Origin: an uncultured Saprospiraceae bacterium
GTDB taxonomy: Bacteria > Bacteroidota > Bacteroidia > Chitinophagales > Saprospiraceae
Direction: 5' to 3'
Assembly: GCA_905480595.1 (NCBI GenBank)
Contig: CAJQQY010000229.1
Coordinates: 1-45,731 of the forward strand
Length of the DNA stretch: 45,731 nt
A model generated the notes under the pieces. It did no database searches, was not told the DNA's origin, and saw only the letters and a list, made by a program, of their open reading frames with translations. This document shows, piece after piece, positions 6,893 through 12,820 of this stretch (its first letter is position 1; every line of letters starts with the position of its first letter). Both the position numbers and the translations under genes were made by a program.

Positions 6893-8026
6893 TTACCTCA
6901 TCCAATTATTATTCAACATTCTTAAAATATAATAGCCTAAATTATAGAGATTGTGTTCTGAGTTGGTCAAAATAACTACTGCTGTGTCACTCTCTTTGAC
7001 AAAAGCTAAATAGGATCGATGTCCGTTGGTATTGCCCGTATGAAGAATAATATCGTAATAATTTTTAGGAGAAATGACATGCCATCCACGAGCAGATTCC
7101 ACTTTTTTATTTCGAGCAGTTGCTTTTCGTCCATCATGAGTTGAATAAAAAGCATTCGTTAATCTTGAATTGCTTTCCCCCATATGAGCCTCTGCAAATT
7201 TAATTAAATCCTTAGCCGTTGATTTTAATCCTTCTGATGCTTTGAAAGATTGAAAAGTCCATGGCGGAGTGGATTGTCCACTTGTGGTATAACCAATTGC
7301 TAGACGTTTTTTTTGATTTTCTGATAACTCAACCCGAGTGTCAGTCATATTAATCGGAACTAGAATTTTGTCGGTCAAAAGTTTTTCAAAACTCGTATTT
7401 TGGCTAGATTCAATAGCTACTTCTGCTAAGGCATAATTGAGATGAGAATAAGAATAGTTGTCTTTGTTTTTTTTATTCTTCTTTCGTATTTTCTTCTTTT
7501 TAGATTCAAGAGGAATATATTCTTTATAGAATTCCATCAAGTCTTGCTTCGTGTAATGAGCGTAAGGATTATTTTTCTCGATTTCTTTAGTACCAAATTC
7601 CAGAGGCATTCGAGGTAATCGGGAAGTGTGAGTCAACAATTGGTCAATCGTTATTTTTTGAGTTTCTTCATTTTTTTCAGTATCAGAAAGATAATCATTC
7701 AATGGTTTTTCGAAACCCATTTTTCCTTCTTCCACTAAAATACTCACCAGGGAACTTGTAAAAGTTTTGGTCAAACCACCAATTTCAAAAATGGTATTTT
7801 CGTCAGGTACTTGTTTGAAATCCTTCGAAATAGAACCATAGCCATAATAGAAAACTGAATCTTGATATTTCACTCCAATAATAAATCCTGGCGTTTCAGA
7901 TAATTTGATTTCAGTATCGTAGTGGATAATCTTGTCTATTTGCTTTTGCAAATTAGCTCGATCTTGAGCCCAAATGTTGGAAGCAAAAAAAAGGGAAACA
8001 ATAAAAAAGATAATCGGTTTTCTCAT
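6893..8026 (-). CDS. Serine-hydrolase (class C beta-lactamase fold) protein lacking the catalytic serine
   Basis: This 377-residue protein has a signal peptide (about residues 1-20, ending SNIWA-Q) and the beta-lactamase/DD-peptidase fold. The SxxK region reads EIGGLTKTFTS, where relatives have EIGSxTKTFT. Residue 84 is Gly (codon GGT), so the nucleophile is missing, while the lysine (K87) stays. The second motif is Y193-S-H195 instead of YxN. The third, HTG (329-331), is intact. A lysine-rich insertion (about 175-190) is unusual. Relatives act in the periplasm on peptidoglycan, beta-lactams or esters. This one may be a binding or scaffold pseudoenzyme, or may use a different chemistry. The fold assignment is secure; the activity is doubtful. 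Confidence 0.85.
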   Translation of the reverse strand: MRKPIIFFIVSLFFASNIWAQDRANLQKQIDKIIHYDTEIKLSETPGFIIGVKYQDSVFYYGYGSISKDFKQVPDENTIFEIGGLTKTFTSSLVSILVEEGKMGFEKPLNDYLSDTEKNEETQKITIDQLLTHTSRLPRMPLEFGTKEIEKNNPYAHYTKQDLMEFYKEYIPLESKKKKIRKKNKKNKDNYSYSHLNYALAEVAIESSQNTSFEKLLTDKILVPINMTDTRVELSENQKKRLAIGYTTSGQSTPPWTFQSFKASEGLKSTAKDLIKFAEAHMGESNSRLTNAFYSTHDGRKATARNKKVESARGWHVISPKNYYDIILHTGNTNGHRSYLAFVKESDTAVVILTNSEHNLYNLGYYILRMLNNNWMR

Positions 8027-8597
8027 ATCTGAATTTAAATTAAAAAAGTGTGAACCGAGTTTTGTGATTAGAAGTAAAAGTAAAACTTTGGATTTACTTT
8101 TTAAAGGTTACTCAGCACTTCTTTTTTATTGCAAATTTTGAGCTAGATAACTCGAAATAGGAGATTTAACATTTATTTATCTCATGATGAAGAATGAATT
8201 GAAAGAGAGTACTTCTAATAATTATTACATTAAATAAATAACAAATATTTGTTTTTATTAATAATAAAATGTATATTTATTTACAGATGAAGAAAAATGA
8301 ATGCAAAACTATTATTCCTGCCTTTATTCAATTTCTCTTCCCAGAGGATTCCCTGAAAATCTTCAACTTTTTTCCTTTTTAAATTACCTAAATAACTAAG
8401 TTCTCAATTACTTGAGACAGTCCTGTAATTTACATGACTCAAGTAATTACACTTGAAATTTATTTTTATGAAAAAAATAAATTTCAGTAAGCAATTGATT
8501 AGTCATGGTATTCCTGAAATTATATCAATAAAGGATTGCCATTAATTAATATCACCATGTTGGTAAATCAAATTACAAACACTAAAAATTTTTAAAA
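8027..8597. other. Long intergenic region upstream of a small peptide gene
   Basis: About 570 very AT-rich bases with no convincing gene. They hold a 14-base perfect palindrome AACAAATATTTGTT (8240-8253) and an 11-base inverted repeat at 8406-8447. A 31-codon ORF at 8287-8382 has no supporting features. The region is long enough to carry regulated promoters for the flanking divergent genes, but I could not define one. Confidence 0.5.
8406..8447. promoter_or_regulatory. Inverted repeat upstream of the GG-leader peptide
   Basis: Arms AATTACTTGAG (8406-8416) and CTCAAGTAATT (8438-8447 with the first C at 8437/8438) are 11-base complements separated by about 21 bases. The spacer contains a small nested ACAG/CTGT pair. 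It is about 150 bases upstream of the peptide start and could be a paired operator or an RNA hairpin. No protein partner is known. Confidence 0.4.
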
Positions 8598-8732
8598 ATG
8601 AAAAAGAAATCATTAAAAATCCAAGATTTTAAAGCAAAATTGAGCAATGCTCAGATTATTGACAGGAAAAGCTTGAACAAAGCTAAAGGTGGAAAAAGTG
8701 ATCCTCCGCCATTTGGACACCAGGAAAACTAG
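8598..8732 (+). CDS. Orphan double-glycine leader peptide (RiPP/bacteriocin-precursor-like), 44 aa
   Basis: This small gene has 44 codons plus TAG. The leader begins MKKKSLKIQDFKAKLSNAQ, continues IIDRKSLNKAKGG, and ends in Gly31-Gly32. This is the layout of Bacteroidota GG-leader natural-product precursors: a basic start, Leu/Phe heptad-like positions, an LS-x-x-Q segment, then GG. The predicted core is only 12 residues, KSDPPPFGHQEN, Pro-rich with no Cys and one Ser, so lanthionine rings are not possible. GG leaders are normally cut by C39-peptidase ABC transporters during export. No such transporter, radical SAM enzyme or cyclase is in this window, so the partners must be elsewhere. A TTTTTAAAAATG start context and a strong terminator 56 bases downstream frame it as a single transcription unit. 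Confidence 0.7.
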   Translation: MKKKSLKIQDFKAKLSNAQIIDRKSLNKAKGGKSDPPPFGHQEN

Positions 8733-8787
8733 TATAAATTCCTAGTTGAGTGCTAAAATTTTAGCCCTCTACCGTTTAAAAAAAACT

Positions 8788-8817
8788 TAGGGAGTAAGAT
8801 GTAAATCTTACTCCCTA
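8788..8817. terminator. Strong bidirectional terminator
   Basis: A perfect 13-base stem (TAGGGAGTAAGAT / ATCTTACTCCCTA) has a GTAA loop. On the minus strand it is followed directly by AG and eight T residues, giving an ideal intrinsic terminator for hscA. On the plus strand TTTCTTT follows, ending the small peptide transcript. Confidence 0.9.
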
Positions 8818-8845
8818 TTTCTTTGTCAAAAAATGATTGAAAATT

Positions 8846-10819: not shown

Positions 10820-11830
10820 TTAAAAATACCTAGAGTAAGAAGCAAAGGGTAGAGAGCTGTTTTGATTAAATTCATCAACGGGGAAGTTGAAAAGACCAAA
10901 GTTGGGAGAAGGTTGGATCCCAAATTTCACCGCATTTTTATCATTAAACCAACTTGCACCAAAACCAGAAAACAAACCAAAGATTTCGTTATTTCTTCTT
11001 TCAAAAGCTCCAAAGGAATTTTCATAAATGATTTTCCAATGACGAGCTACTCTAACAGTTCCGCCGAAACTGAACTTAACGAGTACTTCATCAAAGAAAT
11101 CTAAGGGCTCAAAAACAGGGGCAAAATTTAACGATACATGAACATTTCGATCGGGCGTTCCATAAGAAAAATAACCAGCAGCATTTACAAAACCAGTCCA
11201 ACCTAACATTTCCTCATTTTCAAATTGATTAAAAATTCGTTCTGGTTTTCCGACAGCTTTGATATCAAAACCTGCTCTAAATTTGGAATTATCATATCCG
11301 TGAATGTAATTGAACTTAAGATGAAACATGATGTGACCAAAATTGGTAAACCCAAAACCAACAGTCACCGCATCATTTACTCCGTAATCAAAATTATGTA
11401 TGACTCCCAAGATTGAAGTGAATTCTTTTTCTCTTTTGTATAAAGAAAGACCAGTTTCGGCATAAAATAATCGGTTGTTGCCTTTAACCATTTGAGGTTC
11501 AAATTGATGCTTTAGTTTTTCATGATCTTGAACCACTTTTTGATGCTCGGGAAAACTCATATCGAGACCTTCATCATCAACGATAATTTTTTCTAGGTCA
11601 GTAAGTTCGAAAATAACAGCTTCCGTCTTTTCATCTTCTAAGAAATTAAGCTGAGTATTTTGGATAGAAATAATTTTCCCATATTTCACTTTCCCATTTT
11701 TAAGGATGAGAAGATGGGTTTGGTTTTTATCATTAAAATCAAAATCGCCAATGAAAACTTGGGCACTTAAAATAGGAGTCAGTAAGACTAAAAAAAGAAT
11801 TGTAAGTATTTTGTTATAAAATGTTTTCAT
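10820..11830 (-). CDS. Predicted outer-membrane beta-barrel protein (paralogue 1)
   Basis: A 336-residue exported protein with a signal peptide ending LSAQ (about residue 24). After it, a small beta domain (HLLILKNGKVKYGKIISIQN, about 39-80) resembles a short SH3/Sm-like barrel often found in Bacteroidota secreted proteins. Residues from about 120 alternate in hydrophobicity with many aromatic strand ends (LFYAETGLSLYK, VGFGFTNFGHIMFHLKFNY) and end in SRYF, the aromatic C-terminus of outer-membrane barrels. The adjacent gene at 11840 has the same architecture; the 9-base gap implies one transcript. I do not recognise a named family, and the function is unknown. Confidence 0.75.
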   Translation of the reverse strand: MKTFYNKILTILFLVLLTPILSAQVFIGDFDFNDKNQTHLLILKNGKVKYGKIISIQNTQLNFLEDEKTEAVIFELTDLEKIIVDDEGLDMSFPEHQKVVQDHEKLKHQFEPQMVKGNNRLFYAETGLSLYKREKEFTSILGVIHNFDYGVNDAVTVGFGFTNFGHIMFHLKFNYIHGYDNSKFRAGFDIKAVGKPERIFNQFENEEMLGWTGFVNAAGYFSYGTPDRNVHVSLNFAPVFEPLDFFDEVLVKFSFGGTVRVARHWKIIYENSFGAFERRNNEIFGLFSGFGASWFNDKNAVKFGIQPSPNFGLFNFPVDEFNQNSSLPFASYSRYF

Positions 11831-11839
11831 AGTTGCTTT

Positions 11840-12820
11840 CTAAAATATTTTGGAAAAAGTAAAATAAGGTAGTCGACTAAAGACTTCTGGTGGAAAAACT
11901 AGATCAAAATCTTCATTAAAGTCTAAAATTGGAATAATATTGAATCCCAATTTATTGTGAGAATGAAAACCAAATGCAATATTGAACTTTGAAGTTGCAT
12001 AACTAAATCCAAAGGATGGTAGTAATTGCACTTCCATAAATTTATCATTAAAATTGACATTGTTTTCAATTATAAATTGCCATCGCTCATTCATCCGAAC
12101 ACCACCTCCAAGGGAAATTGAATTATAAATCTTTGGGAAATAATCATTTCTAGAAAAGAAATAATTATGGTTTGCTGTATAATAGTTGGAAAAAGAAATA
12201 TTGAAAAAATGGTCAGGTGTTCCAAAAGATTGAGATAATGAATTTTCAATAATAAAGAACTTTTCATCTTCTTCGAGTAGAATTGGAATGGTTAAAATTA
12301 AGGACTTGAAAGCAGTTCCATTTTTTTCTTGACTAGGAGTCGATAGTTTTATATTCGCTCCCAGAGTAAATGGAAAACTATAACATAATCCAATGGAAAC
12401 GCCATTTGTCACTCCATGATCCCAGAGTATAGAAGCACCCATAAAGGTTCGATAACTTTTTTCTCCTTTCTTTAGGCTAAAACCAGTATTAGTGTAAAAA
12501 AGATATTGTGAATATTGGAAAGGACTGGCGTACTTTTTTTTATTCCAATCGAGATTACCCTTCACCTTTATCTCTTGAATTTCAGAAAGTGTCAAAGTGA
12601 TTTTTTCATCCTTTTTCTTCTTTAGAAAAAATACTTTTTCATTCTGAATTTCTAAAATTTGGCCTTTGATTTTTTTTCCATTTTTTAAAATAATAAGATG
12701 AGTTTGGGTAGAATCTTGAAGATTAAGTTGAGTGTCAAAATTTTGGGAATGTATTGTTATAGAAAAGAAACAAGTACTAATGAAAAGCAATTTTAATTTT
12801 AAAAAAAATAATTTGTTCAT
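11840..12820 (-). CDS. Predicted outer-membrane beta-barrel protein (paralogue 2)
   Basis: A 326-residue tandem paralogue of the next gene. Both carry THL(L/I)ILKNGK, then a GxIxxIQN stretch, an F/LFYxxTGxSL strand and a DHGV/DYGV motif, followed by barrel-like strands ending in an aromatic residue (FSKIF). The signal peptide ends ITIHSQ at about residue 25. The pair arose by duplication but is now strongly diverged: the N-terminal domain is recognisably alike while the barrels match only at scattered positions. This one is the first gene of the pair. The role is unknown; transport or structural barrel function is an inference. Confidence 0.75.
   Translation of the reverse strand: MNKLFFLKLKLLFISTCFFSITIHSQNFDTQLNLQDSTQTHLIILKNGKKIKGQILEIQNEKVFFLKKKKDEKITLTLSEIQEIKVKGNLDWNKKKYASPFQYSQYLFYTNTGFSLKKGEKSYRTFMGASILWDHGVTNGVSIGLCYSFPFTLGANIKLSTPSQEKNGTAFKSLILTIPILLEEDEKFFIIENSLSQSFGTPDHFFNISFSNYYTANHNYFFSRNDYFPKIYNSISLGGGVRMNERWQFIIENNVNFNDKFMEVQLLPSFGFSYATSKFNIAFGFHSHNKLGFNIIPILDFNEDFDLVFPPEVFSRLPYFTFSKIF

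Follow-up and report, generated by a model that had tools for sequence, protein, structure and literature searches.

Double-glycine (GG) leaders are recognised by a GG pair at positions -2/-1 and by hydrophobic residues at -4, -7 and -12. In the streptococcal ComC/ComD system (CSP), a pheromone with such a leader is exported by a C39 transporter and is paired with an adjacent histidine kinase, ComD, which is a polytopic membrane sensor. To our knowledge, no peptide quorum-sensing system has been established in Bacteroidota. A literature search on peptide pheromones or TPR kinases of this phylum, with preprints and most subscription journals outside its scope, found no such pair, and searches with the peptide motif strings returned two unrelated papers only. 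Likewise, no known ligand was found for TPR sensor kinases, of which the genome studied here has several copies (at least eight).

Several described systems are close in one respect or another. The topology of ComD is the subject of a dedicated paper (PMC4873836). RRNPPA receptors are cytoplasmic (PMC9765709), tandemly duplicated propeptides occur in RRNPP(A) systems (PMC11343458) and bacteroidetocins are toxins related to class IIa bacteriocins (PMC6671954). Bacteroidales RiPP clusters combine GG precursors with C39 transporters and, in some cases, with TPR or two-component genes; the same source mentions that, in other bacteria, TPR domains come into action once a pheromone has bound (PMC10352776).

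The subject of the present analysis is a short gene in a 45,731-nucleotide stretch of DNA from an uncultured Saprospiraceae bacterium, the whole of which is referred to as the window. From sequence comparison, this gene probably encodes, in precursor form, an exported pheromone that serves a TPR-sensor-kinase system, with the window copy as an extra ligand gene unlinked to the kinase. The evidence for this reading, and for its rivals, is given below.

The precursor gene and its locus

The gene encodes MKKKSLKIQDFKAKLSNAQIIDRKSLNKAKGGKSDPPPFGHQEN, that is 44 codons followed by a stop, and its translation agrees with the earlier note, which had described a GG leader and a 12-residue core without cysteine. 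The leader conforms to the GG pattern, Ala at -4 being a weak fit, and the five paralogues described below carry Ile at -4, Leu at -7 and Ile at -12. The core is short, hydrophilic, roughly neutral and Pro-rich. Pfam gave no match to the peptide, and an NCBIfam match to GreA, far below cut-off, was dismissed as due to chance. TIGR04149 (GG_sam_targ_CFB) did not match the window peptide at E ≤ 10 and had no match over its curated cut-off in the whole genome, where the best match below cut-off was a peptide on contig C438. No Rfam match at gathering scores was found in the window. The positions of the features are collected in Table 1.

Table 1. Features of the precursor gene and its surroundings in the window
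Feature	Position	Strand	Basis or remark
Serine hydrolase gene, class-C-beta-lactamase/AmpH kind	6893-8026	-	Divergent neighbour; matches below curated cut-offs
Conserved upstream region with inverted repeat	8343-8449	+	Alignment with G004 locus
5' element ACAAACACTAAAA	8575-8587	+	13-mer, 10 nt before start codon
Precursor peptide gene, 44 aa	8598-8732	+	ORF; G004 and G001 peptides at same place; five paralogues
Double-glycine leader MKKKSLKIQDFKAKLSNAQIIDRKSLNKAKGG	8598-8693	+	Sequence; GG at -2/-1, A at -4, L at -7, I at -12
Core KSDPPPFGHQEN	8694-8729	+	SDPPPFGHQEN identical in 6/6 precursors found in genome
Intrinsic-terminator-like hairpin	8788-8817	+	13-bp stem, then T-rich tail
HscA-like gene	from 8846	-	Converging neighbour

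The large upstream control region and the strong terminator attributed to the gene in the earlier note are both borne out. The peptide gene lies 571 bp from the divergent hydrolase gene, and within this distance three blocks (8343-8364, 8377-8416 and 8437-8449) align well with the corresponding locus of the sister species G004; a perfect 11-bp inverted repeat, located by eye, falls inside them (8406-8416/8438-8448). On the other side of the gene, the fold of 8733-8840, which contains the hairpin, has a z of -6.5 against 200 shuffles, with 0 of 200 equally stable. A matching terminator site was also called on the opposite strand, so that the hairpin may be shared by the two converging genes. 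The possibility of a second peptide, encoded by a small ORF farther upstream (8471-8545), was rejected, as this ORF has no family match and a frame that, by eye, is not kept in G004.

The gene order of the window is kept in G004, and the space between the HscA and serine hydrolase genes holds a peptide there too, MKKNSLKIQDFKKKMSKAQ...KGGGKSDPPPFCLGGCS, whose leader resembles that of the window peptide. In a second sister species, G001, the same flanking genes enclose three tandem GG peptides (core GPDKCPPPFDR) and two further ORFs. Both flanking genes are present in G002, with no peptide found between them, and G003 (66% complete) gave no match to the serine hydrolase. Judged by the GG peptides that occupy this position in two sister species, by the strong terminator and by the conserved upstream region, the ORF is a real gene. 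It has no kinase near it and, in line with the earlier note, no C39 transporter or peptide-modifying enzyme was recognised among the window ORFs of at least 100 aa (the family-library scan covered three window neighbours). Elsewhere in the window (10820-12820), two adjoining exported-looking proteins of 326-336 aa are conserved in synteny; they are distantly related (24-26% in cross-species comparisons).

Paralogues and selection on the core

The description of the peptide as an orphan holds within the window only. A search of the 6.27-Mb assembly revealed five further precursors with an identical core, three in tandem on contig C169 and two on contig C289. The six precursors, spread over three contigs, all end in SDPPPFGHQEN and have different leaders; those on C169 and C289 contain an additional unit, GDPPPWGD, in front of this ending, and the 24-mer of the arrays is QGDPPPWGDAKVKSDPPPFGHQEN. 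Over the 11 core codons, the window gene differs from each paralogue by 5-7 synonymous and 0 nonsynonymous changes, as against 11-13 nonsynonymous differences over 22 leader codons. With core changes that are synonymous only and a leader that has diverged, the core seems to be under selection and not to be the result of recent copying.

The same trend is seen between species. Against its G004 counterpart, the window gene has 3 synonymous and no nonsynonymous changes in KSDPPPF, the seven core residues common to both, and 4 synonymous and 12 nonsynonymous changes in the 32 leader codons. The core tails are GHQEN in the genome of the window, CLGGCS in the G004 counterpart peptide and GLGV in the G004 array peptides. 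Since these tails differ, the dispersed copy is, in each of the two genomes, closer to the arrays of its own genome than to its counterpart, and for G004 the resemblance is loose. In G002, the precursors occur singly and form no arrays.

The 5' element has five exact copies in the assembly, each just before a family member (one in the window, three on C169 and one on C289), compared with one occurrence of the reversed control pattern; the 13-mer of the sixth precursor differs by one base. Exact copies also precede three G004 peptides and one G001 peptide. The C169 and C289 arrays have about 360 bp upstream in common, and a genome search with this 361-bp promoter was near full-length at the two arrays only, the other 27 matches covering 17-47 bases. 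The upstream region of the window gene differs from the array promoter, so that, on sequence, expression of this one core probably responds to two or more kinds of control.

Distribution of the peptide family

Leader homologues in related genomes, on which the earlier note had made its reading depend, were found. Peptide matches at E ≤ 0.05 occur in 51 of 398 genomes in a family-level search; a class-wide search gave 2 of 395 genomes, one being the genome of the window and the other a weak match with stops. This near-absence across the class indicates that, as far as model A3 detects them, the peptides belong mainly to this family-level group. A scan of named genomes for the DPPPW group returned nine loci, two of them from Saprospiraceae MAGs; the other seven, short partial matches mostly in other groups, were judged to be due to chance. 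A viral origin was rejected: viral contigs gave 229 and 42 matches to the patterns, none of which encodes a relative of groups A7 and A8. In two sister species, the gene right after an SDPPPFG peptide encodes a subtilase that carries a T9SS sorting tail (L048, 242-3635; L050, 9662-13007).

Association with TPR sensor kinases

On C289, the same-strand gene before the two precursors encodes a TPR-HisKA-HATPase-REC-AraC hybrid kinase; two of the five paralogues thus adjoin a TPR hybrid sensor kinase, and G004 and G002 have an orthologue of this kinase in the same gene order. The association extends to the peptide family. At 55 loci in 17 genera, TPR kinases account for 21 of 100 genes adjacent to GG peptides and for 1 of 287 non-adjacent genes (Fisher p 1.4e-12, orthology ignored), the sole non-adjacent one being in G019. 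The loci were picked by their peptides only, with wide flanks covering matches down to E ~0.0023 plus one on contig C314 of the window genome (E 0.017); at L052 and L100 the pattern found no peptide, and these two supply far genes alone. Kinases were counted with the help of kinase and TPR profiles that themselves derive from seven linked receptors, and Pfam confirmed TPR, HisKA and HATPase domains in all 12 peptide-linked receptors scanned. With one locus per genus in 2000 draws, the median was 8/32 versus 1/90 (median p 7e-5, largest 0.0027). A GG peptide gene stands beside a histidine kinase at 21 loci from 11 of the 17 genera; the other six have no directly adjacent kinase, G019 among them, where the kinase follows after one gene. 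The linkage is statistical and holds for the peptide family, not for the window locus itself, and a linked kinase may also regulate a peptide without sensing it.

Among peptides with PPP or RP, to which the list of strands and distances is confined, the nearest peptide is on the kinase strand in 23 of 24 pairs, 50-467 nt away (827 nt, with one gene between, in G019); G178 is the exception, with its nearest peptide on the other strand. In the other genera and in G099, the peptide mostly lies 50-344 nt before the TPR-HisKA-HATPase kinase on the same strand. Such an arrangement, in several genera, would also suit an upstream ORF whose translation controls the next gene: PPP and DPP are known ribosome stallers, and stalling at the (D)PPP(W/F) motif of the core could sense the translation (EF-P) status. 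This explanation is very improbable, since a terminator of its own and a converging gene come after the window copy, the peptides of its own genus are downstream of the kinase, and the kinase-linked GG peptides of g36 and g47 are devoid of PPP; it also leaves the GG leader and the conserved HQEN tail unexplained.

Not all TPR kinases are accompanied by a peptide. The genome of the window has at least eight (from the surroundings of 30 of 52 matches), two of which, on C289 and C438, have an adjoining GG peptide; for the other six of the eight, no GG peptide was found in the flanks examined. The C438 peptide, with a core ending in GGGNPPPPPDSSAG, is 100 nt upstream of its kinase, and this second pair (L175, 2927-3094 and 676-2826) has the core INSGGDNNGTIIPGGGNPPPPPDSSAG. 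In the kinase tree, hybrid and plain kinases are far apart, with 11 of 24 inner branches open. Conversely, GG peptides of G053, G137, G140, G336, G276, G148, G227, G150 and others have no directly adjacent TPR kinase, and some of them, whose cores have endings such as IIVDD or IIIED, seem to belong to a different family.

Individual loci illustrate the variety of these peptides. In G099, from another family of the order, a TPR kinase is preceded by a tandem series of six GG peptides, which alternate in type and have GYPPPF cores (L059, 8578-10014). GG peptides with KRKDRP or KRRDRP cores lie 130-153 nt before TPR kinases in g36 and g47 (L114, L117, L120, L121, L122, L110). In G227, six GG peptides of 39 aa stand in tandem; their cores resemble KIKKQEPKAG, and no TPR kinase adjoins them (L119, 2395-3607). 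In G178, a pyridine-nucleotide oxidoreductase with a weak C39-like N-terminal match adjoins CPPP peptides and a TPR kinase (L104, 219-1820).

The sensor domain of the linked kinases

Comparison of the hybrid kinase between the genome of the window (G000), G004 and G002 separates its two parts. For the pairs G000-G004, G000-G002 and G004-G002, the kinase part is 88.4, 87.1 and 88.4% identical and the TPR sensor 54.5, 50.6 and 75.2%. Four other proteins gave 86.4/87.2, 91.1/90.1, 98.0/94.5 and 93.8/91.2% for G000-G004/G004-G002, and 82.5, 86.5, 96.8 and 89.6% for G000-G002, which is the most distant pair for three of the four. Since these proteins place G000 about as far from G004 as G004 is from G002, the sensor gap between GHQEN and GLGV-type genomes is far above expectation. 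On the evidence of three species, which are few, the TPR sensor appears to have diverged together with the tail of the peptide, as the kinase part and the four other proteins have not. The three genus members with a C289-type receptor carry SDPPPF precursors beside it; neither was seen in G001 and the incomplete G003, where the receptor search at E 1e-100 gave nothing and the peptide matches were all weak.

A transmembrane segment precedes the kinase in 22 of 22 peptide-linked receptors, and 19 of the 22 have an N-terminal hydrophobic segment over the hydropathy cut-off; the TPR domain between them is predicted to be periplasmic. Both segments were seen in one of five TPR kinases without peptide scanned in the genome of the window, so that the two-segment layout is not universal. 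The C289 sensor was modelled as an all-helical TPR superhelix (pLDDT 86.9, pTM 0.74). Its best structural matches are eukaryotic LGN TPR domains in complex with partner proteins, followed at lower rank by the pheromone receptors Rap and NprR (Z 17.3-18.6). Such matches are generic for TPR, and the modelled fold fits peptide binding without being a proof of it.

Export of the peptide

The earlier note had envisaged export by a distant C39 transporter. Two full C39-ABC transporters were indeed found in the genome, one on C19, close to HlyD and outer-membrane efflux genes, and one on C86, followed by a 437-aa gene. A C39 match is present in 22 of 22 peptide-bearing genomes and in 9 of 20 hand-chosen family members without peptide match (p 4e-5), a contrast in which C39 presence may in part follow genome size. 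Together with the leader homologues and the kinase-linked relatives, the transporters lend indirect support to the idea of a signalling peptide exported by a distant transporter. On contig C235, a stand-alone C39 peptidase lies beside a LanB-type dehydratase, a possible lanthipeptide locus (L046, 7940-8413 and 8502-11063).

The peptide could instead be an exported natural product, such as an antimicrobial with or without modifications; the neighbouring kinase would then sense something else and regulate its production. GG precursors and C39 transporters are found together in Bacteroidales RiPP clusters (PMC10352776), and the genome of the window has the LanB-like gene beside a stand-alone C39 just described. 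However, the scanned neighbours of the peptides included no recognisable radical-SAM, ATP-grasp, YcaO or Lan gene (most neighbours being listed by length only, and a modifying enzyme may be encoded farther away), the core lacks Cys, is short and hydrophilic and is identical in six paralogues, and the recurrent neighbour of such peptides is a TPR kinase. We regard this explanation as unlikely. The bacteriocin-like character suggested earlier found no support, given the same lack of a recognised modification gene among scanned neighbours and a core that is short, about neutral and Pro-rich; bacteriocin and modified-peptide readings have less support than the pheromone reading.

A further alternative is that the peptide stays in the envelope of its producer and tunes the TPR kinase with no cell-to-cell signalling. 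It would suit the predicted periplasmic position of the sensor domain, the release of the peptide from the cell being a prediction as well. It nevertheless seems improbable, because multiple gene copies of one core, together with species-specific tails, resemble pheromone systems and because the HlyD and outer-membrane efflux genes near the candidate exporter on C19 point to export across both membranes.

A proposed pheromone system

The pheromone reading, which assumes an unmodified core, can be put as a sequence of steps. The C39-peptidase ABC transporter on C19 or C86 would cut the leader after GG and export the core KSDPPPFGHQEN, a step suggested by the leader motif and by the presence of the transporters. 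The peptide would then arrive at a membrane sensor kinase and meet its TPR superhelix, which is predicted to be periplasmic. In its own genome, the most likely receptor would be the C289 hybrid kinase, because it stands beside two tandem precursors of the same core; the linkage is observed and the binding proposed. From its domains, the kinase relay and the AraC domain would change transcription. The window copy would be an additional ligand gene, and its different upstream region would allow the same signal to be made under a second input.

Related pairs of peptide and TPR kinase with other cores occur across the family. More broadly, and tentatively, these pairs could represent an undescribed class of quorum sensing in Gram-negative Bacteroidota, in which short-core, often poly-Pro, GG pheromones are exported by C39 transporters and read by periplasmic TPR kinases as co-evolving species dialects, the window gene being a dispersed ligand copy with the same receptor and another promoter. 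If true, bacteria of this group would communicate by peptides in a new way, with a signal read by a sensor encoded elsewhere in the genome. The recurrent gene pair provides TPR kinases with a directly testable ligand. It also illustrates that length-filtered annotation can hide a signal gene, the family being visible only across contigs and species.

Comparison with known systems

With the TIGR04149 family, the peptides share a Bacteroidota GG leader, the genome of the window having no match over cut-off. The clusters of PMC10352776 considered here carry modifying enzymes, unlike the loci of the present peptides, where none was recognised among scanned neighbours. Bacteroidetocins are likewise small Bacteroidota peptides; they are set apart by their description and by the gene linked to the present peptides, which is a kinase. 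The RRNPP(A) systems (Rap, NprR, PlcR, AimR) resemble the proposed one by a TPR superhelix as the putative receptor, a generic fold that was modelled here; they differ in that the TPR domain of the present kinases is predicted to be periplasmic and is kinase-fused, and in that the peptide has a double-glycine leader. The likeness to streptococcal ComC/ComD lies in a GG-leader peptide, C39 exporters in the genome and an adjacent histidine kinase, the last at loci of the family and not at the window locus. Unlike the polytopic ComD, the proposed receptor has a predicted periplasmic TPR domain and one transmembrane segment before the kinase, and the system would belong to Gram-negative bacteria, with a hybrid kinase in the genus of the window that has an AraC output.
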